NCBI GenBank assembly: GCA_017624715.1 | Contig: JAGAMN010000008.1 | Span: forward strand, 1-41,239 | Direction: 5' to 3' | Source of the DNA: Oscillospiraceae bacterium | Lineage (GTDB): Bacteria > Bacillota > Clostridia > Oscillospirales > Oscillospiraceae | DNA length: 41,239 nucleotides | In this document: piece after piece, positions 3,768-15,791 of the stretch | Numbering within the stretch: position 1 is the stretch's first letter | Layout of the letters: the number at the start of each line of letters is the position of its first letter | Notes under the pieces: model-generated | Databases searched by the model: none | What the model saw: only the letters and a program-made list of their open reading frames with translations | What the model was told of the DNA's origin: nothing | Made by a program: the position numbers and the translations under genes

Positions 3768-4601
3768 TTATGTGATTGCGCTGATAAGATACTTGACTCG
3801 TTGGTGCGCATCCTGCTTAGTAAGCTCACGTTCTTCCTCGTTTCTGATATCCAGGAACGCTACAATATCCATAGGACCAGCATGCTCTGGTGATGTAAAC
3901 TTTTCACTCAGTTTCTGCCGCATCTGCAAAACAAGCTCTTTGTTCTTATACGGGATAAACTCACCTGCTAATGCTTTCACTCCACCAGGATAATGCTTTA
4001 ATGTAGTATAGATGTCATATGCATCTTTCGGTTTCCCACGACCAAGCGCGGCTGCCTTCATCACCAAATAAGGGACAACGGAAATAACATTCACATGTCC
4101 CACATCCAGTGCTCCATCTGAACGTCTATACTCAATCTGAATATCCTCGGGAGGAAAATCAAACGCAAAATTACCGCCAGTAGCAGGTAACGCCTTGACG
4201 CCATCTATGTGTTTGCTTACCTGACCACCTTCACCTCCGTATTTACCGGAAAGGAAGTCCACATCCACATCATAACTCACCCCATGGACATCCACAGTTT
4301 TAACAAAAGTAAAGTACTGTTCAGGGTGCCGCACATAGCCATTTTTCTCCAGTATCCGCTTGATAGTCAAATACCCGTCAGTCTTTTCAATCCTCAACTG
4401 ATTCAGCAGAACATCCACATCAATTGAACCAATGTGACCACTATGTGGATATAGTAGGGACGGAACCCATCCTCCAATAATCCGGAAGTTATCGGTAAAC
4501 TCATTTAGCAGATTGACGATTTCTCCCAAGACCATATATGCAGCATCCTTTTGGCCTTCAGAGTAATCAATTGCCTGTTTCAATTCTATATCTTTAAACA
4601 T
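3768..4601 (-). CDS. AbiEii-like nucleotidyltransferase toxin (type IV toxin-antitoxin)
   Basis: A 277-residue protein with a minimal nucleotidyltransferase signature: IIGGWVPSLL (glycine loop) followed about 15 residues later by SIDVDVLL (the two metal-binding Asp), with a third acidic site in VSYDVDVDFL. This arrangement (GGxx...DxD) is that of AbiEii/MNT-type toxins, which transfer nucleotides to tRNA or other targets and arrest growth. It starts 9 nt after the antitoxin-like gene stop, with GGAGAAATAG just upstream, so the two are translated from one message. The antitoxin-then-toxin order matches known AbiE loci, which provide phage abortive infection or plasmid stability. Confidence 0.82.
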   Translation of the reverse strand: MFKDIELKQAIDYSEGQKDAAYMVLGEIVNLLNEFTDNFRIIGGWVPSLLYPHSGHIGSIDVDVLLNQLRIEKTDGYLTIKRILEKNGYVRHPEQYFTFVKTVDVHGVSYDVDVDFLSGKYGGEGGQVSKHIDGVKALPATGGNFAFDFPPEDIQIEYRRSDGALDVGHVNVISVVPYLVMKAAALGRGKPKDAYDIYTTLKHYPGGVKALAGEFIPYKNKELVLQMRQKLSEKFTSPEHAGPMDIVAFLDIRNEEERELTKQDAHQRVKYLISAIT

Positions 4602-4610
4602 CTATTTCTC

Positions 4611-5672
4611 CTATCTAAATTCTTTCTGAATGATCGCTTCTGCGGCTTCCTCTCCTCGTCCACAATTCCCCAACAGATCAATTATAGTCTGAACAGGAGA
4701 TGTCACAAGATCACCATTTATCGTCCGGACAAACATGCACGGTGTTTCATCATGAGGGATTGTAACAACAACATTACCACCGGACGAAACCTGCTGCAAA
4801 TCGAGCTGCCGCACAAACGCATCCAGGTTTTTCTGCTCCACATAAACATGCACCCTATTATACCGTACTGTGGGTGCGTATCGCGCTGCAGCAGAAAAAC
4901 CTCCCAACACGGCATTCGTATCTCGTATAGTATTGCAAAATTGGACCTCCGATTCAATTTTAGGAATGGGATCAAGGGAATAATATTCCACTGTACGTGG
5001 TGCCCGAAGATGATAGTTTTTTGCCCATATATAGAGTATTTCCCGTTCATTCCTCAATTCAAAACCATGAGGGTACTCCACAATCCAATCTTGTTCTTGC
5101 AAGAACTTCTTCACATTAAAAACCGTTCCAAGAGCTTTTCCTGTTAATTCAGAAAGGAGTTTAATAGACCACACCGCATGCGGCTTATCTAACATAGTAC
5201 GCATCACCACGGACGCTGCCGTAGCATTTTTGGAAAAATAGTCTCGCTTCTCTCGGTGGTCTTTGTATTGGTTGGGTTGACCTGCAAAATGTATGACAAA
5301 ATACTTGGATAGAATATAGCAGTTCCCAGATAAGTCCATATAGCTAAAGTTATTTTGGCATATTGTCTCGGCAGAACTTTCAGAAATATACGGTGCCATA
5401 AAAACGTAAGAAACATCATCATTATGTTGAGATGCCATTTTTATAAATTGATTTGCAAAGCGTTTCTCACCATTTGATTTTACCTCTACAGCAAATATAG
5501 CAGGTTCCCTGTTGTCTTTAAATAATACAACTGCACGAAAATTTCCAAAGCCACACTGTAAACCAACGAGAGAGATTTCAACACGCAAAACATAAGGGAT
5601 GTCTTCAATAACTTTGCGGAACTTTTCAATTGCTAACTGCTCATATTCCATTTCTGATAGCTTTATTTTCAT
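4611..5672 (-). CDS. AbiEi-like antitoxin/transcriptional regulator
   Basis: A 353-residue protein. The central part (about 170-215, AVWSIKLLSELTGKALGTVFNVKKFLQEQDWI) is a winged helix-turn-helix and the C-terminal part (about 235-350, ending TSPVQTIIDLLGNCGRGEEAAEAII) is the AbiEi C-terminal domain. The N-terminal 140 residues include AIFAVEVKSNGEKRFANQF and YMDLSGNCYI, which resemble a PD-(D/E)xK restriction-fold core (E-x-K). This makes it longer than the classical AbiEi of about 200-280 residues. AbiEi proteins neutralise the paired nucleotidyltransferase without binding it and repress their own promoter. Here a perfect inverted repeat lies between the promoter and the gene. Confidence 0.8.
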   Translation of the reverse strand: MKIKLSEMEYEQLAIEKFRKVIEDIPYVLRVEISLVGLQCGFGNFRAVVLFKDNREPAIFAVEVKSNGEKRFANQFIKMASQHNDDVSYVFMAPYISESSAETICQNNFSYMDLSGNCYILSKYFVIHFAGQPNQYKDHREKRDYFSKNATAASVVMRTMLDKPHAVWSIKLLSELTGKALGTVFNVKKFLQEQDWIVEYPHGFELRNEREILYIWAKNYHLRAPRTVEYYSLDPIPKIESEVQFCNTIRDTNAVLGGFSAAARYAPTVRYNRVHVYVEQKNLDAFVRQLDLQQVSSGGNVVVTIPHDETPCMFVRTINGDLVTSPVQTIIDLLGNCGRGEEAAEAIIQKEFR

Positions 5673-6643: not shown

Positions 6644-7366
6644 CTATATGCCCAAAAGAATACGGCTTGTATAATCCAAGATATTCTTAACGGCTCCGTC
6701 TTTCATCTTGCTTAATCCATCTTGTGTCCTTGTTAAGCTTCCTTGTAGAAGTTCTGCTTTATTAATGCCGGCAACAAACGGTGCGTCAGATTCAAGCACA
6801 ATACGTTCAATCGGAATTCGTTCTATTATCTTCGTACCATTTATAGACTTTAGCATTTGCTCGTTTATTGAAAAATAACACCCCATCTCGATAGCCCGCT
6901 CTAACTGTGCCAACGAACCCGAATACCAGTGCAGAATACAGTTGTTGTGCTCTGTCGTTTTATATTTATCGAGAATGTCAAGAACCTGCTTATCTGCAAA
7001 GGCAGAATGAATCGAAATGGTTTTTGCTCGAGCACAAGATTGAATAATATGCTCAAAGACAATTATCTGATCTTCCTTAGAGGAATAGAATCGTTTAGAA
7101 AAATCCAATCCAACTTCACCGATAAATCTGCTCGATGCAGCATACCTGTCGAATATAGCCAACTCTTGCTTTCGCTCAGAGACTAACTGTGGATGCAGAC
7201 CCAACGCAACATTAACCGATGAGTAGTTGGCTAACATACGTGTTTCTGCATAGTACGCCTTAGGTGTCGTAGTCATTGCTAGTATAGAAATATTCAGCAT
7301 TGCTGCGGTTGCGCAAAACCGATTCATTGGATCAATCAGATCCACATGGCAGTGCATATCGAACAC
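6644..7366 (-). CDS. qatD: QatD, TatD-family metal-dependent nuclease
   Basis: A 240-residue TIM-barrel hydrolase of the TatD family. The metal ligands are visible: HCH (residues 5-7, in MHCHVDL), GEVGLDF (Glu), SIHSAF (His), LHWYSG (His) and LESDAP (Asp). TatD proteins are Mg-dependent 3'-5' DNases. As the last gene of a KAP ATPase - QatB - QueC-like - TatD operon this is QatD, required for Qat anti-phage defence. The start is GTG at 7366, after AGAGGTGAT. It follows qatC by 22 nt. Confidence 0.9.
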   Translation of the reverse strand: MFDMHCHVDLIDPMNRFCATAAMLNISILAMTTTPKAYYAETRMLANYSSVNVALGLHPQLVSERKQELAIFDRYAASSRFIGEVGLDFSKRFYSSKEDQIIVFEHIIQSCARAKTISIHSAFADKQVLDILDKYKTTEHNNCILHWYSGSLAQLERAIEMGCYFSINEQMLKSINGTKIIERIPIERIVLESDAPFVAGINKAELLQGSLTRTQDGLSKMKDGAVKNILDYTSRILLGI

Positions 7367-7388
7367 TTTATCACCTCTAACACACTAA

Positions 7389-8747
7389 TTAATGCTTTTC
7401 ATTTTCCAGCGAAAGTCGAACAAACGAATCTACCTCCAACAGCCCACGTAAGTATGCATTCCCCAATCTCTCTAGGTGCTCAAAATCGCCTTCAATAGGA
7501 CCACTCTTATGTATGAGCATTTTGGCTAGTGCAGGTGTTGCGCTAACCCTATCGATAGCAATTTCAAAAGAACGCAGCTGTACACCCTCTGTAGATGCAT
7601 GGTTAGCGCGGATTGTCGAAATTCTGTCATAATAATACTCCGTTGGATCATTGCCAACTCCATAAGCTCGCGCCATTGCTGCTCTACGAATAATACATGG
7701 CACGCAATATCCGCAATGTTGCGGATGTATACCTTTGTACCGAAGCTTCTGTGGTGATGAACAAGAAATCGAATCTGAGATAATGCTATGAAGCAGCACC
7801 TTATTACAACACTCATCTGCCATCTCCCCCTTGGTTTTATCCCAATATGGATTAATGACTGACTTGCCCATTTCCATTTCTGACAAAAGAGAATTCCAAC
7901 ATCCAAGATAGAAAGGATGCGTTGTTCGGGTGCTATGTGATCCTATGCGGAGACTGTCAAGCGGTACATTCAACGCAATTAATGCATTTTCCGGAACATA
8001 CAGGGTGTTAACACTAGGAATTCCACTTAATACGCATACCCCATATGCTATGAACAGGAAGGATCTACTGCGTGTCGAGTTTTCTCCACCACCCGATTCG
8101 ATTAGTTCGTCCTCAAAAGCTGTCCAAAGATCGAAGTACGCAGGCTTATTCTGAGGATATTTGTTATTAAAGTGTGTCAGCAGTTTCCTCTGGGAATTCT
8201 TTGTATAAGAATCCGCCGCATGACTAATGAAAGCAATTCTTGAACCAACTTCTAACAAATTAATGGCTGCAATTAGGCTGTCCATTCCTCCAGAAAACAG
8301 GGTAACTGCATCAAGTTCAATCGGCGGCGATAGAGGATTCGGAAGCTCTGCCAATTCCGTTGATCTATGAGAAAACTCCATCTCCCACAAATCGCCGGTT
8401 AAAAAATTTAACATCCGCTTGATTGTAGGAATTGATGAATTCCACTTGTCAACATTATATACTGGCAAAGAAATGGTTATCTCTCTTGTCCAACTATCTT
8501 GAGAATGGATCTCTCTAGAGATTCGGGTATCCGCCAGGTAGACTAATGTTGCTAAGCACAAAAAATCAATGCCATCTTCGGAAGGCACGATTCCATTGGC
8601 ATGCAATTTACTCATCACATTGCCTAATCCGTATTTCAACATGCTCTCTCTAGTTATCATTGGTACAACAGTCGTATACAGGTGCTCGTTTTCTGTATAT
8701 GATGGTTCTACCGTTGAATAACTGCCAACTAGTTTATATCTCTTCAT
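7389..8747 (-). CDS. qatC: QatC, QueC-like deazaguanine-handling enzyme
   Basis: A 452-residue protein. The PP-loop (ATP pyrophosphatase) motif LFSGGMDSLIAAINLL lies near residue 150, and a C-terminal zinc site reads HCGYCVPCIIRRA, as in QueC (7-cyano-7-deazaguanine synthase). It is much longer than housekeeping QueC (about 220 residues) because of an extra N-terminal domain of about 140 residues and a C-terminal extension, as usual for QatC. From recent work on QueC-like defence enzymes, it may attach a deazaguanine to the N-terminal glycine of QatB. Its ribosome site (GAGGAA) lies in the last codons of qatB. Confidence 0.92.
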   Translation of the reverse strand: MKRYKLVGSYSTVEPSYTENEHLYTTVVPMITRESMLKYGLGNVMSKLHANGIVPSEDGIDFLCLATLVYLADTRISREIHSQDSWTREITISLPVYNVDKWNSSIPTIKRMLNFLTGDLWEMEFSHRSTELAELPNPLSPPIELDAVTLFSGGMDSLIAAINLLEVGSRIAFISHAADSYTKNSQRKLLTHFNNKYPQNKPAYFDLWTAFEDELIESGGGENSTRSRSFLFIAYGVCVLSGIPSVNTLYVPENALIALNVPLDSLRIGSHSTRTTHPFYLGCWNSLLSEMEMGKSVINPYWDKTKGEMADECCNKVLLHSIISDSISCSSPQKLRYKGIHPQHCGYCVPCIIRRAAMARAYGVGNDPTEYYYDRISTIRANHASTEGVQLRSFEIAIDRVSATPALAKMLIHKSGPIEGDFEHLERLGNAYLRGLLEVDSFVRLSLENEKH

Positions 8748-8751
8748 AATA

Positions 8752-9534
8752 TTATTCCTCTATGCCCGTTAATAAGTCATATGATTTCTTATATATCGAA
8801 TCTACAATTTCACTTGCTTGGGAAGAATTAATCCGGGATATGTCAACATTCAGTTTAGCAACTGCGTCTGACACTGCTCCACTTATGAATCCAGCTAATT
8901 GACGTTGAATCTCATCAATTTGCGCAACTGAATCTGGTAAGGAAAAACACTTATTGCCGATATCATTAATTAAGCGGTCTTCGATTACTCTCGACATATA
9001 GTGTTCTGTAAAAGCAAGAAACTCCGGAGGACTCAGATCTTCAATGCTTTTATCCTGCAGTTCTGGCATAGCAATAATCGCTTCGATATATGAATCTCTT
9101 GCTATTCCTTCATCGGTTGAGCCTCCATCAGGACAAATAAACTTACCGATCATAAGTAAGGCGTCTGCCGCTTTCTTGCCTATAATGTCGCCCAAACGGA
9201 ATAATCTTTGAGATTCTGCAACGCCGTGTATAATAATGCTATTAAAGACGGAAAACATTTGCGCAGTGCTTCTCCTAGCTGCACCCAGTCTGACTGTTGC
9301 ATTGCTAGAACCGCCCAAGGTATTGCGCACATAATGAGATGTTGCCCTACTCAAATGACCCGACCGTCCACCATTACCTGACCTGTTGTCATTAATAAAC
9401 CGCGTAAAATCCCCCCGAGGAACAGAAAACCGATCCGGTGACTGTGGTTGTGGGTCAAAACTATTATCATTCAACCATGATGGAATTAGGGGTGTGCCCC
9501 CTTTTTGACCTGGATTACTTGTTGATGTGCCCAC
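8752..9534 (-). CDS. qatB: QatB, Qat defence component
   Basis: A 260-residue protein with the typical QatB layout: a flexible Gly/Ser/Pro-rich N-terminus (MGTSTSNPGQKGGTPLIPSWL), then a mostly helical body. The start is GTG at 9534, with AGGAG 9 nt upstream. The second residue is Gly followed by Thr, so methionine aminopeptidase should expose an N-terminal glycine, the residue reported to be modified by QueC-like partners. It lies 13 nt after qatA and 4 nt before qatC, so translation is tightly coupled. The biochemical role of the body is unknown. Confidence 0.87.
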   Translation of the reverse strand: MGTSTSNPGQKGGTPLIPSWLNDNSFDPQPQSPDRFSVPRGDFTRFINDNRSGNGGRSGHLSRATSHYVRNTLGGSSNATVRLGAARRSTAQMFSVFNSIIIHGVAESQRLFRLGDIIGKKAADALLMIGKFICPDGGSTDEGIARDSYIEAIIAMPELQDKSIEDLSPPEFLAFTEHYMSRVIEDRLINDIGNKCFSLPDSVAQIDEIQRQLAGFISGAVSDAVAKLNVDISRINSSQASEIVDSIYKKSYDLLTGIEE

Positions 9535-9547
9535 CTGTCACAACTCC

Positions 9548-11494
9548 TTACTCATTTATTCTACTCTTTGCTGCAATTTTGGTCACAGCTGTGCCCTTTT
9601 CTGCCAAGAGTCGATAATATCCTTCTAATTGCTTCTTTTCATTTTCTTTCCGAATACACTTATCCCAGCCGGTGCAAACCCATGCGCCAACCTTACCCAC
9701 ATCCAGAACAAGAATCAGCTTCACCAGATCTTGTTCCAATGTGTCGTGATGCTCAACCAGTGTGATAACGCCGTCAATTCCTCTAGGCTTATCAGCTAAA
9801 GCGCCAGCCTGCTGAATTTTGCGAGCAAGAATATCAAATACATATTTTGCATCTCTGGTATTCAACTCTTTAATTTCTGGAACAGCACTTGCTACAGCCA
9901 TTGTATTACCCATTAGCTTGCTGATTAGCTGTCGAATAGCTTCATTTTGAGTTTGGGCAAAGAAATAATCCTCCGCACCTTTGCACGCAAAGAAATACGG
10001 CCGTAGATCTTCATTTCCTAATTGGGGTTCACTGAGTGCCCATGAACAGAAATCCAGCTTGCTTCCCCAATCTGTTATGTGTGCATCTTTTTTGTTCTCG
10101 GATGGTGTGACACCCACTCCCCTCTCGACTGCCATTGCAACTACGGTATCCTGCGTTTCTCTTTCCGTATTCTTTTCTGATGAAGCTATACTCTTCTCGA
10201 ATTCCGCTAGTTGTATGCATTTACCTTCTTCATCCAGCAAAGTAGCTATGGTTTTGTACTCTCCGGCATGGAACTGCTCAGCAAGCATCATTTTAGCCAT
10301 AATAGGTAACTGGATAGATGCTCCAAAACCTCTGGCTTCAGCAATTTCTCGTCTTAACAGCAACATGTTAATGAACCGTTTGATCTTTCGTGGATTGCCT
10401 TGAGTGTTCTTTGACAGAATATCAGCGATCTGATTTGCCACAGAAAATGCTTCTGCCGCTTGAGCATATTTATCACCAAGCGCTGTTTGAATATCACCAA
10501 GCGTAAATCCATTATTCTCCCATGGCTTTTTCATTCTATCTATTGCAATATTAAGTACGTTCTTAAAGTTAGCATCAGATTCATCTAACACCGATCCAAT
10601 CATCAGCATTGCCGTATACATTTCGGATTCAACCTTACCAAGAACAGGGATTCTAAACGGAACTTGAATCAGTTTTTCCAAATAACGTTTAGAGTACTCA
10701 TAACCTGTATGCTGATCATTTTCTGTTGGATAATCTGGGAAATAGCTTCCTACAGCATACTCAATCATCGCTTCATCTGCAGCAATAACAAAAGCCGTAG
10801 AATTTGAGAACAAGAATAATCGAACAGCCTCTAATGTCTCTATCGTAACTTCGGGCAAACATCTGTCTAGATCATCGATTAAGACGATCAATTTTTTTAT
10901 TTTTGTCTCTTTCAACAAGGCATCGAACGATTTTTGAAATTCTGCGAATTCTTTTGATAAGGAGACATCCTCAAACACTTTTGCTTCGTTCAGGTAATTA
11001 CCTACACATTCTATGGCCCCCGAAATCTTTTCTCCATCTGTTACGTCGCTTCTTAATTTGTCAACAAGACCTGTCAGCATATTAATCGGTGGAACACCCG
11101 TTGCAGCAGACACAGCAACACTACCTACTGTTTTCGCTACACTGATCCAGTTAATGTTCTTCCAAAGTTTTTTAGCAACATCCTTTGCCTTTTCACTCAT
11201 TTTACGTCGCCGTGTTATTTCAGATAAAATTGCACTCATTAATGCGATCTTCGAGTCCTCAAACCCTTGATGTTTCCATCCATTAAAGCGAATACATACA
11301 ATTGAGTCATTTTTCCTTGATGGGAACTGTTCCTCAATCATAGCAAGTATACTGGATTTGCCTGCACCCCAGTCTCCATGTACACCAATAGATATAGGTT
11401 GATTTGCACTTTCATTGATCAGCTTTACAATGGTATTTGCGATTGCACGATTATTAAGCATGTCAACTCGAGTTTCATTATCGGTTAAAATCAT
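9548..11494 (-). CDS. qatA: QatA, KAP-family P-loop NTPase
   Basis: A protein of about 648 residues. Walker A is GVHGDWGAGKSS near residue 37 and Walker B is KLIVLIDDLDRCLP near residue 205, with the KAP-type region AFVIAADEAMIEYAV after it and TQGNPRKIKRFINMLLLRR as the sensor/arginine segment. KAP NTPases often have a membrane-inserted helical pair in this insert; here a moderately hydrophobic stretch lies around residues 115-140. I chose ATG at 11494, with AGGAGGG 7 nt upstream, not the longer frame to 11524. It is the first canonical Qat gene and probably the sensor/energy component. Confidence 0.92.
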   Translation of the reverse strand: MILTDNETRVDMLNNRAIANTIVKLINESANQPISIGVHGDWGAGKSSILAMIEEQFPSRKNDSIVCIRFNGWKHQGFEDSKIALMSAILSEITRRRKMSEKAKDVAKKLWKNINWISVAKTVGSVAVSAATGVPPINMLTGLVDKLRSDVTDGEKISGAIECVGNYLNEAKVFEDVSLSKEFAEFQKSFDALLKETKIKKLIVLIDDLDRCLPEVTIETLEAVRLFLFSNSTAFVIAADEAMIEYAVGSYFPDYPTENDQHTGYEYSKRYLEKLIQVPFRIPVLGKVESEMYTAMLMIGSVLDESDANFKNVLNIAIDRMKKPWENNGFTLGDIQTALGDKYAQAAEAFSVANQIADILSKNTQGNPRKIKRFINMLLLRREIAEARGFGASIQLPIMAKMMLAEQFHAGEYKTIATLLDEEGKCIQLAEFEKSIASSEKNTERETQDTVVAMAVERGVGVTPSENKKDAHITDWGSKLDFCSWALSEPQLGNEDLRPYFFACKGAEDYFFAQTQNEAIRQLISKLMGNTMAVASAVPEIKELNTRDAKYVFDILARKIQQAGALADKPRGIDGVITLVEHHDTLEQDLVKLILVLDVGKVGAWVCTGWDKCIRKENEKKQLEGYYRLLAEKGTAVTKIAAKSRINE

Positions 11495-11551
11495 TAGGCG
11501 ACCCTCCTGTCGAAATAATGCCAAAAAAATACTACATATTTTTAAGATAGT

Positions 11552-12214
11552 TTAGGACTTGCTCCATTCAGCACTCAATTGCTTAATAACATGAATAAAT
11601 TGAACTCGAGAGTAGCTATCGGAACAGAAGCTCGGAGCAGAAATTCTGCACACATCGACCAACGCACGATATGTGGCAGTATGATTTCCTACCCAGTCCC
11701 AGCTGAGCAAAATTAGACTTGTAAAATCGAACATGGACACTTGCTGAGGATCTTCACGTAGCTGGTTGATGTACCAACGCCAACAATCTCTATCACTATG
11801 TGTTTGGATATCATCAGGGAGGATGTTGTAAATGGTGTTGACTTGTGAACAAAGATGGTTCAGTTCATGTTCCTCGCCAGTTACCCTAGGGAAGGTCATT
11901 GCTAAATTCCGGGAAAATTCCTCTACCAAAGGACGCCCATTAGACCAACGAGCTTGCCAGTTAAGACCAGCCGCATAGCCGGAAAAAACATTTGCGTAAG
12001 CATCAGATAAGGAACCGCCATCATAGAGAGACTTAATCCAATGCCGAGCATTTGCATCAGTTGGCATAAGCGCTTGTTCTAAAGCCTGTTCGATAACTGC
12101 GGATTCGCTGCGGCCTGACAGGGTAGAAAGATCCTTTACAATTCCCTCGATGGTTTTTCTTTTTTGGGGCGATGAAAACAAGATCATTTTCTTAAGCGAA
12201 TTATCAATAGGCAT
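11552..12214 (-). CDS. unrecognised Qat-operon leader gene with ribbon-helix-helix-like start
   Basis: A 220-residue soluble protein, the first gene behind the Qat promoter. Residues about 12-50 (FSSPQKRKTIEGIVKDLSTLSGRSESAVIEQALEQAL) have the spacing of a strand-helix-turn-helix like Arc/CopG regulators. The rest (residues 55-220) is rich in Trp and charged residues and matches no family I know. AGGAGG lies 7 nt before the ATG. The gap to qatA is only 57 nt with no terminator, so it is co-transcribed. It could be an operon repressor, a phage sensor or an extra effector. A fifth gene is not part of the canonical QatABCD set. Confidence 0.75.
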   Translation of the reverse strand: MPIDNSLKKMILFSSPQKRKTIEGIVKDLSTLSGRSESAVIEQALEQALMPTDANARHWIKSLYDGGSLSDAYANVFSGYAAGLNWQARWSNGRPLVEEFSRNLAMTFPRVTGEEHELNHLCSQVNTIYNILPDDIQTHSDRDCWRWYINQLREDPQQVSMFDFTSLILLSWDWVGNHTATYRALVDVCRISAPSFCSDSYSRVQFIHVIKQLSAEWSKS

Positions 12215-12258: not shown

Positions 12259-12287
12259 AGTATAACCCCATTAGGTGGTAATGTCAA
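12259..12287 (-). promoter_or_regulatory. promoter of the Qat operon
   Basis: On the minus strand, TTGACA (12287-12282), 17 nt, TATACT (12264-12259). Between the start site and the ribosome site lies an imperfect dyad (TTATAGC / GTTATAA, about 12231-12248), a possible binding site for the first gene product. Confidence 0.8.
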
Positions 12288-12382: not shown

Positions 12383-12454
12383 ACAGATATGGCTCAGGCG
12401 AAAGGACCTCGAGCTTTTAGTCAAGAGGCGAAGACTCGCTTTCCTCTGTCCGCA
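12383..12454 (+). ncRNA. tRNA-like element 1 (most degenerate)
   Basis: This element has a GCTC/GAGC D-stem (12392-12395 / 12411-12414), preceded at tRNA-like distance by ACAGA (12383-12387), which can pair with TCTGT (12445-12449) as an acceptor stem. It ends CCGCA, close to the CCGCCA end of element 2. The D-loop is too long (15 nt) and no standard T-loop forms; GCGA/TCGC closes only 4 nt. I include it because size (72 nt) and spacing (8 nt to element 2) fit the series. Confidence 0.35.
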
Positions 12455-12462
12455 GTAAACAC

Positions 12463-12551
12463 AGAATCCTAGATCGTAATAGAGAGCACATCGATGTAGG
12501 AGACCGTCGCGTAGAAACCATCTGGAAGTTCGAGTCTTCCTGATTCCGCCA
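12463..12551 (+). ncRNA. tRNA-like element 2 (canonical T-arm, encoded CCA)
   Basis: A perfect T-arm GGAAG-TTCGAGT-CTTCC (12524-12540) is followed by TGATTCC, G and an encoded CCA (12549-12551). The acceptor half GAATC (12464-12468) pairs with GATTC. Next comes TA and a D-arm GATC...GAGC-A with an 8-nt loop. The middle is abnormal: the best anticodon stem is CGATG/CGTCG around an 8-nt loop, with a 14-nt variable region. At 89 nt it has class II length. It would probably not work as a normal elongator tRNA. Confidence 0.55.
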
Positions 12552-12556
12552 CATAC

Positions 12557-12632
12557 GGAGCAGCCGCTCAGCCAGTGGAGCATCAGGTTAAAAATCTGAG
12601 CAGCTCTGGTTTAATTCCAACCGGTTTCACCA
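12557..12632 (+). ncRNA. tRNA-like element 3 (76 nt, encoded CCA, anticodon position AAA)
   Basis: This element is exactly tRNA length. The acceptor GGAGCAG/CGGTTTC pairs at 6 of 7 positions. The D-stem is GCTC/GAGC with loop AGCCAGTG. The anticodon arm is TCAGG-TTAAAAA-TCTGA (5 bp, 7-nt loop, U33 kept, positions 34-36 AAA). The variable region is 5 nt, the T-loop is TTTAATT and CCA is at 12630-12632. Decay is visible in two T-stem mismatches, the loss of a clear G18G19 and C56 changed to T. The core D-loop/T-loop contact is therefore weakened. Confidence 0.6.
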
Positions 12633-12635
12633 TAT

Positions 12636-12714
12636 GGGTCGGTCACCTATCAGCAATGACACTGTAAATGCGACGGTTAATCCTACATTGGTTTGATTCC
12701 AACATGACTCACCA
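12636..12714 (+). ncRNA. tRNA-like element 4 (encoded CCA)
   Basis: The acceptor GGGTCG pairs with TGACTC (with two G-U pairs). The D-stem is GTCA/TGAC and the anticodon stem ACTGT/ACGGT has a 7-nt loop AAATGCG. The T-arm is TTGG-TTTGATT-CCAA, then ATGACTC-A-CCA (12712-12714). As in element 3, T-loop position 56 is T instead of C. U33 is replaced by A and the linker positions 8-9 are missing, so it is tRNA-like but not a standard tRNA. It starts 3 nt after element 3. Confidence 0.5.
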
Positions 12715-12736
12715 AATAGCTATGAATATCTGAAAA

Positions 12737-12766
12737 GCGCAGGTCTAGATCGCTCCAAACCTGCGC
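12737..12766 (-). terminator. terminator of the CBASS operon
   Basis: A perfect 8-bp stem GCGCAGGT/ACCTGCGC with a 14-nt loop. On the minus strand it is followed by TTTTC. It lies 27 nt beyond the effector stop. On the plus strand it also follows the tRNA-like array, with only a weak T-rich tail. Confidence 0.75.
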
Positions 12767-12792: not shown

Positions 12793-13548
12793 TTATTGTA
12801 CTACTATTTTCTGTTGGATAATATCCCATTTGTTAGACAATTCATCATTATGTTTATTAAAGACCGTGCTGTCTAATCTAACCTTATAGTGGGCCTTAAC
12901 AGCCTCGTATTCAACAGCATACGACAGTAACCATGCTTTCTGTTTTTCGTCTTTGACACCAATGGTAACAAACGCAGAATATGCCTCATCATACAGTTTA
13001 TCCATCTTCAACTTGTATATAGCCAACATTACAGCGTCCTCAATCACATATGCAGAAAACACAGCTTGTGCAATAATAAGCAAGACATCACCATTAGATA
13101 CGAGCCACCCCGTAACAATCAATGCGACAACTGATACTAAGGCCTTTAAAGCGCCTTTCACAAGCATCTTTCCTGCTATGAATGTGCTGTAAAAATTGGA
13201 TTCAAATGCATTGAGCGCATACTTGGCTATAGACGGAGACAACCCATTATTGTAATAACCCTCTGTCTCAAGTTCAGCAAGAGATACATTGAATGCAACC
13301 TGGATGCCGTTTTTGCGTCTCGCCATTTCAGCATTGTACCAAAATAAACCATCATCCACACTCTTAAAGACAACATACAAAACTGCACCTATTATTTGCA
13401 CATAGGTTAAGACAACTTTAATTTGGCCGCTACAAATTGCTGCGGCCAAGGAGATAACACTATTTCCCCAAAAGAGATATTTGCACACCGCCGTCATAGT
13501 CTTAGAACGGTTATACAGCAAATCAACATCATCACGCTTGCTCACCAT
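12793..13548 (-). CDS. CBASS membrane effector, S-4TM-like
   Basis: A 251-residue membrane protein with two hydrophobic pairs: about 22-65 (YLFWGNSVISLAAAICSG and VVLTYVQIIGAVLYVVF) and about 130-180 (ALKALVSVVALIVTGWLV and VLLIIAQAVFSAYVIEDAVML). A conserved-looking cytoplasmic segment, NGIQVAFNVSLAELE, lies between them. This is the layout of SMODS-associated four-helix (S-4TM) effectors, which open the inner membrane when the cyclic nucleotide binds. It starts at the stop of the CD-NTase gene (TAATG overlap), with GGAGG upstream. The family assignment rests on topology and context. Confidence 0.75.
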   Translation of the reverse strand: MVSKRDDVDLLYNRSKTMTAVCKYLFWGNSVISLAAAICSGQIKVVLTYVQIIGAVLYVVFKSVDDGLFWYNAEMARRKNGIQVAFNVSLAELETEGYYNNGLSPSIAKYALNAFESNFYSTFIAGKMLVKGALKALVSVVALIVTGWLVSNGDVLLIIAQAVFSAYVIEDAVMLAIYKLKMDKLYDEAYSAFVTIGVKDEKQKAWLLSYAVEYEAVKAHYKVRLDSTVFNKHNDELSNKWDIIQQKIVVQ

Positions 13549-14318
13549 TACACCTCCGGAAATGCCTTCTGAATTTCGCTCAATGCAGTATAAGGCATAT
13601 TGATATTCTCATACTCCAATGCCTTATCGATATGAGCAATCGCGGTATCAATACGACTGTAGTTTGTGCTAAACTTAAGCACCTGCAGCGCTTTTTTGAC
13701 ATACTCAGTATAGGATGTACAGGTAATATAGGAATACATCATGTCCTCGGCTATTTTCTTCTCAAGGTAATACGAGGCCAAATCCCGATAATTCTTCTGG
13801 ATATTCCAATGCTTAATCAAACGCACTACAGGCTTGATCTTGTATGCATTATTCACATTGCACTTAGTCAATGTGTCATAAAAACCATCGGGATCCGTGA
13901 ACACCCATTCGGATGGTCCCTTGGGAATATAATAACAACCATTTGACACATAAGCAGGTGTCAGTTCAAATTTAATATGGTTGAGTTCGAGAACAATCGT
14001 TGGGCTTGATTGGTAGATCTCCGATCTAGAATAATAGTGCTCAGCAAAATTCTTCAACCTGTTTAAGAAACTCTGCGGCTTGTATCCGTAAGGATTTGAA
14101 AATACTACCATCAAATCCACATCTGATTCCGAGTCTGCCTTTCTCGGCAAAATGGTGCCTCTGACGTATGATCCAAATACTTTTTTCTCTGTGACATCAG
14201 AAAAGTAAGAGTCCAAACGTGATTTGATGGTATTGATAGAAGTGGTAATGCTGGCCTTTTCCGAATCGCTTAGCACCAATTCGCTCGCCAGATTTTGCAA
14301 ATATGAATTAATAGACAT
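13548..14318 (-). CDS. CBASS CD-NTase (cGAS/DncV-like cyclic nucleotide synthase)
   Basis: A 256-residue nucleotidyltransferase. The signature VFGSYVRGTILPRKADSESDVDLMVVF (residues about 48-74) contains G-S and the D-x-D metal pair, and the third acidic site is IKFELTPAY. The helical C-terminal half is of OAS/PAP type (KIKPVVRLIKHWN). Such enzymes make cyclic di- or trinucleotides on phage infection and activate a partner effector. ATG at 14318 has GGAGG 7-8 nt upstream, and the longer frame to 14369 has no ribosome site. It is directly followed by the membrane effector, with no Cap2/Cap3 or HORMA/TRIP13 genes, so this is a minimal (type I-like) CBASS. Confidence 0.88.
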   Translation of the reverse strand: MSINSYLQNLASELVLSDSEKASITTSINTIKSRLDSYFSDVTEKKVFGSYVRGTILPRKADSESDVDLMVVFSNPYGYKPQSFLNRLKNFAEHYYSRSEIYQSSPTIVLELNHIKFELTPAYVSNGCYYIPKGPSEWVFTDPDGFYDTLTKCNVNNAYKIKPVVRLIKHWNIQKNYRDLASYYLEKKIAEDMMYSYITCTSYTEYVKKALQVLKFSTNYSRIDTAIAHIDKALEYENINMPYTALSEIQKAFPEV

Positions 14319-14367
14319 TTTTAGACCTCCATGGCAAAATTTCAACCCGTTTGTTTCATGTAATGAC

Positions 14368-14373
14368 ATTATA
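14368..14373 (-). promoter_or_regulatory. -10 box of the CBASS operon
   Basis: A perfect TATAAT on the minus strand, 50 nt upstream of the CD-NTase start. The -35 element at 17 nt (TGTTAA) is weak, which suggests low or activated expression. Confidence 0.6.
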
Positions 14374-14877: not shown

Positions 14878-15791
14878 TTCTTTTTCCTCCTCCGTCTTTC
14901 TTTCGCCTGATTGCGCCGCAGGATCAGGAACATCTCATCCTGCTTTCTGAAACGCGCCTGGGACTGCTGCGCCACGATCCTGAGGGTCTCCCTGTCCGTG
15001 TCCCATTCAGCAATGCCCCGGTTATACTCGCTTCTGCGCTTGTCGTCGATGATGAAGGGATCTATACCACGCCGAAGGCATTCCTTCATCATGATCACAC
15101 GGCCTACCCGTCCATTGTAATCCTCGAAGGGGCGGATGCATTCCAAACGGACATGGAACTCCAGAATCCCATCCAGGGTAGGCTCGGCCTTTTCATAGGC
15201 CCGCATTGCGCTGTCCAATGCGCTCGGGATTTGCGCTGGCTGGATACCCATCTTCGCCGATGTTTTGCGATACTCACCGGGTTCGGTTTTTGTGTCCCGT
15301 GCTGCGTAGGTGCCGTAGCTCAGGAGGTAGTGCAGCTTTCTGATCATTGTCTGTGACAGCGGCTTCGACACATTATCCAGCATATAGCTGACACACCGGA
15401 AATGGTTCACGATTTCGATCAGATCATCGATCTTCATCGGCTCAAAAGCGACGGAGATTTTGTCTGTCCGATAGACTTCTTCCACCTGCTGTCTCGTCAG
15501 GCGGTTACTGGCCATCCGGCAAGAGCTGTAGGCCAGGTTGACCTGGATATGCTCATAGACATCAAAGTGGTTATTGCGCTCTTTCTGATAGAGCACGCGT
15601 TTGAGCAGCGATGTAGGCTCAGGCTCCGGTTCTTTGGGAGGAGCACCCGGTCGCTCAGCATCCTCCGGGATCACCCAACCGGTGTCCCTCTGGATTGCTC
15701 CAGGAATCCTTCCCTCCTTGCAAAGCCGCCGGACCCGCTGCCCGGAGACCTCCCATCGCTCCGCGGTCTCTTTTACAGAGCAGTAGTTCAT
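14874..15791 (-). CDS. Fic-like protein with substituted active site and N-terminal helix-turn-helix
   Basis: A 305-residue protein starting MNYCSVKETAERWEVSGQRVRRLCKEGRIPGA, an excisionase/MerR-like DNA-binding domain (residues 1-45). The Fic domain follows. Its core motif reads IRPFEDYNGRVGR (219-231), so the catalytic His of HPFxxGNGRxxR is Arg220. The inhibitory-helix region reads AYSSCRMASNRLT (87-99), where the usual S-x-I-E-G-N-x-L-T has Ala/Ser instead of Glu/Gly. Both changes suggest that it cannot AMPylate in the standard way. AGGAAGG lies 10 nt before the ATG. It is followed by the overlapping DUF6809 gene. Confidence 0.82.
   Translation of the reverse strand: MNYCSVKETAERWEVSGQRVRRLCKEGRIPGAIQRDTGWVIPEDAERPGAPPKEPEPEPTSLLKRVLYQKERNNHFDVYEHIQVNLAYSSCRMASNRLTRQQVEEVYRTDKISVAFEPMKIDDLIEIVNHFRCVSYMLDNVSKPLSQTMIRKLHYLLSYGTYAARDTKTEPGEYRKTSAKMGIQPAQIPSALDSAMRAYEKAEPTLDGILEFHVRLECIRPFEDYNGRVGRVIMMKECLRRGIDPFIIDDKRRSEYNRGIAEWDTDRETLRIVAQQSQARFRKQDEMFLILRRNQAKERRRRKKK

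Follow-up and report, generated by a model that had tools for sequence, protein, structure and literature searches.

The three tRNA-like elements that stand in a row with a Qat operon on one side and a CBASS operon on the other are very probably the remnant of a mobile-element tRNA array that is decaying in a defence island, of which a single copy is known. The row would consist of decayed Ser-like, Phe and Tyr genes, and its Phe-Tyr pair is collinear with the 3' end of the arrays carried by an IMG/VR contig and by another genome of the family. A dying phage-type tRNA cluster was among the origins considered in an earlier sequence-only reading of this DNA, and both the collinear relatives and the signatures of decay described below support it.

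Genomic setting of the array

The window, i.e. the whole stretch of 41,239 bases that was analysed, is one entire contig of an assembly of 2.27 Mb (completeness 85.9%). To the right it carries ordinary chromosomal genes (ATP synthase, RecD2 helicase, MreB); the defence-type genes, for an AbiEi-like antitoxin, QatABCD, a CBASS cyclase, its 4TM effector and a Fic protein, are found to the left. Both operons are encoded on the minus strand, and the three tRNA-like elements lie between them on the plus strand, in antisense orientation. PADLOC identified Qat and CBASS on either side of the array, just as the sequence-only reading had placed them. The neighbouring features are as follows.

3768-5672, minus strand: AbiEi_2-type antitoxin gene, then a 277-aa ORF with a GGW...DVDV motif
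6644-11524, minus strand: whole QatABCD span (PADLOC)
6644-7366, minus strand: QatD (PADLOC)
7389-8747, minus strand: QatC (PADLOC)
8752-9534, minus strand: QatB (PADLOC)
9548-11524, minus strand: QatA (PADLOC; NCBIfam QatA, 766.5 bits)
11552-12214, minus strand: 220-aa ORF, family unassigned, 27 nt upstream of QatA
12259-12287, minus strand: promoter-like site TTGACA-17-TATACT (11/12 consensus matches; a consensus match only)
12737-12766, minus strand: strong 13-bp hairpin, then TTTTC (fold -23.1 kcal/mol, z -5.3)
12793-13548, minus strand: CBASS 4TM effector (PADLOC)
13548-14369, minus strand: CBASS oligonucleotide cyclase (PADLOC; Pfam SMODS)

The promoter-like site precedes the 220-aa ORF and the Qat genes and is directed away from the array, and a consensus scan found no promoter-like site on the plus strand between 12143 and 12952. 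The 220-aa ORF, which has no PADLOC, Pfam or NCBIfam match, is present in one of 61 genus genomes, that of the window itself, and homologues were found in none of the 60 others, plasmids or viral contigs; lying behind a near-consensus promoter, it is possibly an extra Qat gene. Just past the array, the hairpin at 12737-12766, which is absent from the output of a consensus terminator scan, is the likely end of the CBASS transcript. The antitoxin gene and the 277-aa ORF, whose GGW...DVDV motif we take to be nucleotidyltransferase-like, possibly form an AbiE-like toxin-antitoxin pair; no family match was found for this putative nucleotidyltransferase, and comparison with solved structures gave one weak match (E 0.3), to an alginate protein. 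Mapping of the island edges via the DUF6062 neighbourhood in genus relatives met a gene order too divergent and yielded no empty site, and a search for repeats found no flanking direct repeats involving the array.

Three elements with encoded CCA ends

Covariance models were built from related array loci using 18 type-II tRNAs (R1), 48 type-I tRNAs (R2) and five Ser-like elements (R3), the training tRNAs of R1 and R2 including the Phe and Tyr of the relatives. When R1 was run with filters off over both strands of the 41,239 bases (its E-values being rough), the top three matches were three plus-strand blocks, each with an encoded CCA and spaced by 5 and 3 nt, and the fourth reached 10.6 bits (E 1.2). 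The three elements, none of which R3 matched in the window, are listed here with their R1 and R2 values.

12463-12551, plus strand, 89 nt: element 2, probably Ser-like (R1 25.1 bits, E 3e-4; R2 17.2 bits, E 0.012)
12557-12632, plus strand, 76 nt: element 3, Phe-like (R1 22.2 bits, E 1.7e-3; R2 40 bits, E 7e-9; Rfam tRNA 26.4 bits)
12636-12714, plus strand, 79 nt: element 4, Tyr-like by tRNA-Tyr homology (R1 24.0 bits, E 6e-4; R2 E 0.36)

Four tRNA-like blocks had been described on this strand by the sequence-only reading. Three stand as the top R1 matches, along with their encoded CCA ends, the T56 seen in two of them (T-loops TTTAATT and TTTGATT) and an odd anticodon arm in one, which proved to be the 8-nt anticodon loop of element 2 (TAGGAGAC). 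The first block (12383-12461, plus strand) was rejected: it is without T-loop and CCA, has no match with R1, R2 or R3, shows a similarity to 78 array-locus tRNAs (25) at the level of shuffles (mean 22.6, 95% 27.5), and has a fold z of -0.11.

When R1 is run over the whole of the window's own genome, element 2 has an E of 0.017 and element 4 one of 0.033, and element 3 is absent from the matches listed; since these E-values are only modest, the strongest support for elements 3 and 4 is sequence homology. A crude scan for T-arm, acceptor and CCA picked up elements 2 and 4 on the plus strand and nothing on the minus strand; on the plus strand of 60 random windows with matching dinucleotide composition it averaged 0.18 matches and never gave more than two. 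It paired element 2 to a different 5' end than the covariance model does and saw element 3 only under relaxed limits. Neither ARAGORN nor Rfam reports a tRNA in the window at default cut-offs. At a relaxed E-value, in the spirit of the relaxed cut-offs that the sequence-only reading had suggested for tRNAscan-SE and Infernal, Rfam recovered element 3 (12557-12629, 26.4 bits, the cut-off being 29) and left the other blocks unmatched. Relaxed ARAGORN was rejected as evidence because it made an overlapping opposite-strand call and read the Tyr element as Val. R2 also matches 15309-15370 on the plus strand (15.7 bits, E 0.03), antisense within the Fic gene, probably by chance.

Element 2 has the length of a type-II tRNA, with a long variable region, and ends in G73-CCA. 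Its T-stem (5/5), acceptor (5/7) and anticodon stem (5/5) pair, its D-loop is without GG, and its best sequence match is a tRNA-Ser with a marginal score of 30 (maximum 31 in 200 shuffles). The model score, T-arm and CCA suggest a tRNA ancestry for 12463-12551, and length, G73 and place indicate that it is probably a decayed tRNA-Ser. Searched alone against phages at E 10, it gave three records with a 19-nt match, and a pattern made from its T-arm and acceptor found nothing in viral contigs.

Element 3 appears from its sequence to be a decayed tRNA-Phe, with a score of 56 against the tRNA-Phe of L087, a locus in a same-family genome (shuffle maximum 31). It has AAA at the anticodon position where its relatives have GAA, bears the core changes T8C, G18A, A21G and C56T, and retains 18 of 21 stem pairs, with a D-stem of 4/4, an anticodon stem of 5/5 and two T-stem mismatches. 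Element 4 likewise appears to be a decayed tRNA-Tyr (GTA) with encoded CCA: it matches an intact tRNA-Tyr of another family genome (G039) at 79% (E 5e-16), and its alignment score to array-locus tRNAs is 91.5 (shuffle maximum 35). It carries G18A and C56T, and a 5-nt gap across the 3' D-stem and 5' anticodon stem removes one side of the D and anticodon stems.

The stems of element 3 bear on the idea that these are working, divergent mobile-element tRNAs that standard tools under-score: its anticodon stem is unlike that of the viral contig L023 (IMGVR_UViG_3300022753_000315) in sequence with pairing preserved, and array tRNAs can be unusual, since ARAGORN also misses a Ser-like element in the relatives. 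Such a reading is nevertheless highly improbable in the face of the missing stem sides of element 4, the loss of C56 from two elements, the 8-nt anticodon loop of element 2 and the T-stem mismatches of element 3 itself.

Relatives of the array

DNA searches of a sample of 400 family genomes, in which the best two candidates per genome were scored, gave one strong match outside the window's genome, the intact G039 tRNA-Tyr (contig C40), also called by ARAGORN, the next outside match being at E 8e-4. A pattern derived from this tRNA-Tyr led to a single viral contig, L023, in which ARAGORN calls eight tRNAs. With the L023 array as query, the 400 genomes returned the Phe-Tyr pair of the window (12545-12717, 73%, E 1.1e-20) and, among the matches listed, array matches that were longer or occurred more than once in G154, G039 (two loci), G117, G209, G354, G290 and G337, so that the sample holds at least seven array-bearing genomes, the count of loci being a lower bound. 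At E <= 1e-5, 366 of the 400 genomes match, mostly once and at tRNA length, presumably through ordinary tRNA genes. BLAST of the region against E. coli, plasmid and phage collections gave no match. An origin by chance resemblance, with no tRNA ancestry, could appeal to the silence of default ARAGORN and Rfam and to the modest own-genome R1 E-values; set against the E of 1.1e-20 to an array Phe-Tyr pair and three adjacent top model matches in 41 kb, its probability is close to nil, and for 12557-12714 it is refuted.

Nine array loci were examined (L022, L023 and L085-L091). The L023 order, in tRNA sense, is Glu-Gln-Cys-Glu-Trp-Gln-(Ser-like)-Phe-Tyr, and that of L087 is Gln-(Ser-like)-Phe-Tyr. 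Gln, Ser-like, Phe and Tyr thus follow one another in two of nine loci (L023, L087) and Gln, Ser-like and Tyr in three (L022, L085 and L088, Gln being damaged in L088); the L086 array ends at Gln, and the content of L089-L091 differs. The Ser-like, Phe and Tyr of the window fit the 3' end of this order, the Ser-like position agreeing, as we infer, by place and type only: element 2 has no sequence resemblance to the relatives' Ser-like element. The L023 contig carries an integrase/resolvase-type recombinase, and defence-type neighbours are found at L086 (type I restriction genes) and L085 (ResIII/PLD helicase). A defence setting is not general among the relatives, because the neighbours searched at L086 and L088 are metabolic, transposase or unmatched.

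Three further observations concern the relatives themselves. A small HTH-like protein (~80 aa, 'PTI(N/D)L.LTGANI..LRKAAGL') precedes the array in L022, L023 and L087, the three loci checked; in the window, the best match to a remnant of its gene spans 12 residues (E 0.095). A conserved Ser(GCT)-like element, missed by ARAGORN, occurs in five of the nine loci.

L022:7962-8047, minus strand: Ser(GCT)-like element
L023:10033-10119, minus strand: Ser(GCT)-like element
L085:9367-9452, plus strand: Ser(GCT)-like element
L087:8757-8845, plus strand: Ser(GCT)-like element
L088:8086-8171, minus strand: Ser(GCT)-like element

It has an 8/4-type acceptor/T-stem in four of five cases, a 6-bp D-arm with a 3-4-nt loop and, again in four of five, C rather than U at position 33. 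Among the five sequences, both partners have changed in nine of 31 pairs, with L087 contributing many of these changes and the structure being taken from that same five-sequence alignment. It looks like an allo-tRNA, as far as the available text of PMC7609411 describes these. Finally, at L022:2139-8367 and L085:8884-15035, in two genera, the array is convergent with genes of an RNA-repair type (RNA-binding/DUF2828 protein, RtcB, and nucleotidyltransferases, among them one of the CCA-adding type). In jumbo phages, tRNAs are proposed to act together with RtcB, CCA-adding enzymes and TROVE proteins in RNA repair, according to the accessible portion of PMC7824862, and the L022 and L085 arrays fit a set of this type. 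A search of the window's own genome, whose assembly is 85.9% complete, detected no RtcB.

Decay versus constraint

Intact L023 Phe scores 69.6 bits with the Rfam tRNA model against 26.4 for element 3, and L023 Tyr 55.4 bits against no match for element 4. Elements 3 and 4 are both without G18 and C56, and element 3 also without T8 and A21, all four nearly invariant in alignments of intact tRNAs. Polarised changes, counted only where two intact relatives agree, number 13 of 77 positions in element 4 (12 GC>AT, 1 AT>GC), in addition to its gap, and 20 of 68 in element 3 (11 GC>AT, 7 AT>GC, 2 neither), the AT bias being clear in the former and weak in the latter. The GC contents of elements 2, 3 and 4 (0.48, 0.51 and 0.46) compare with 0.493 for the whole window and a mean of 0.597 (sd 0.050) for the 78 array-locus tRNAs. 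None of the three minimum-energy folds is a cloverleaf, as that of L023 Phe is. Element 3 does fold more stably than its shuffles (z -2.2, with -2.5 for intact L023 Phe and only -1.2 for intact L023 Tyr), which, like its 18 retained stem pairs, counts against decay.

All three elements have retained their encoded CCA, their acceptor and T arms are fairly well kept, and elements 3 and 4 share the parallel core changes G18A and C56T, both of which drift need not produce. This is what one would cite for tRNA mimics kept by the island, serving as CCA-ended decoys for, or sensors of, enzymes that cleave or modify tRNAs and belong either to phages or to toxins encoded nearby, for example the putative nucleotidyltransferase beside the AbiEi-like antitoxin (3768-5672), which lies in the same region. 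The AT-biased changes of the Tyr element, its stem-destroying gap, the lack of a plus-strand promoter-like site in the scan and the non-cloverleaf folds all speak against such mimics, which we consider improbable to a high degree. Degenerate tRNA copies are moreover not special to the defence locus, because the genome has, besides 55 tRNAs above the Rfam cut-off, several tRNA-like places below that threshold elsewhere, and three of the five listed here lie near an intact tRNA.

C58:21249-21333: weak tRNA-like place, own genome
C33:9114-9198: weak tRNA-like place, own genome
C52:23076-23159: weak tRNA-like place, own genome
C67:13294-13356: weak tRNA-like place, own genome
C44:4616-4669: weak tRNA-like place, own genome

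Searches of genus genomes, plasmids and viral contigs revealed no further copy of the island; as it is known from one copy, drift and constraint are not separable by strain comparison.

Relation to Qat and CBASS

The sequence-only reading had also considered that the island might keep the elements as tRNA mimics, for example as decoys or sensors or as a partner of a neighbouring defence system, and proposed a survey of arrays beside Qat or CBASS loci. Our survey covered the 400 family genomes and this CBASS effector type, the viral contig L023 lying outside it. QatA occurs in two genomes (E <= 1e-30), the window's own and G202, and the effector type in one (E <= 1e-10), the window's own, so that the sampled genomes with array relatives, at least seven, carry neither. 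Among the matches listed, co-occurrence is confined to the window's own genome, and no recurrent association of arrays with Qat or with this effector was seen. In 18 kb at the G202 QatA locus there is no tRNA-model match below E 0.2, and no homologues of the effector were found in viral contigs. With QatA and the effector absent from the genomes of the array relatives and no second island copy, a partnership is without support, and the same distribution counts against mimics kept by the island.

Proposed origin of the remnant

Phage tRNAs have been proposed, in the available parts of PMC10264068 and PMC11555353, to replace host tRNAs cut by defence nucleases. The intact ancestral arrays would, on what can be drawn from this literature, have supplied spare tRNAs for those destroyed by tRNA-cleaving defences. 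The array may then have entered, as cargo, the accessory region that also contains the defence genes; no longer under selection, it would now be drifting, and its place between two operons would reflect how such regions gather cargo and not a working partnership. A variant, most unlikely in our judgement, is that a defence island captured such an array, once an anti-defence kit linked to RNA repair, and turned its tRNAs into CCA-ended decoys that no longer serve translation. In these, G18A and C56T would uncouple the D- and T-loops, and toxins directed at the CCA end or the acceptor, for instance the putative AbiE-like nucleotidyltransferase of the region, would still be bound. If true, this would be a case of host reuse of an anti-defence tRNA kit.

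Comparison with known systems

The locus is new and its kind already known; a literature search found, in titles and abstract openings, no description of degenerate tRNA rows in defence islands. As debris, the decaying array matters little by itself. It indicates that tRNA arrays can land in accessory DNA shared with anti-phage systems and then erode, and it suggests that degenerate tRNA rows of defence islands be compared with mobile-element arrays before decoys are proposed.

Pseudogenes of tRNAs are tRNA-derived and have lost invariant bases and stems. The Phe and Tyr elements of the window answer to this description, the homology of the Ser-like one being marginal, but here three stand side by side and were inherited as an array. 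Mukai and colleagues reportedly described allo-tRNAs and irregular tRNA polycistrons in 2017 (covered in the review PMC7609411). Allo-tRNAs of the 8/4 type have an 8-bp acceptor, a 4-bp T-stem and a 6-bp D-arm with a short loop. The window shares with them an irregular tRNA row, and its relatives carry an element resembling this 8/4 type, their Ser-like one; none of the window's three elements is matched by R3. To anti-defence phage tRNAs, as they appear in the accessible text of PMC10264068 and PMC11555353, the intact ancestors would be likened through their likely role, but the window copies are broken and lie in a bacterial defence region.

The closest comparison is with mobile-element tRNA arrays, for which Mycobacterium units (PMC5966550; PMC12803027) and jumbo-phage arrays (PMC7824862) serve as references within the available portions of these papers. 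Unlike them, the window has only three elements, all degenerate and none reaching the Rfam cut-off; with no ARAGORN call and no match at the Rfam gathering threshold, it is filed as a remnant and not as a working array. What it shares with them is tRNA-derived genes set head to tail on one strand of accessory DNA, a few nt apart and with encoded CCA, together with Phe-Tyr homology and order in common with same-family arrays.
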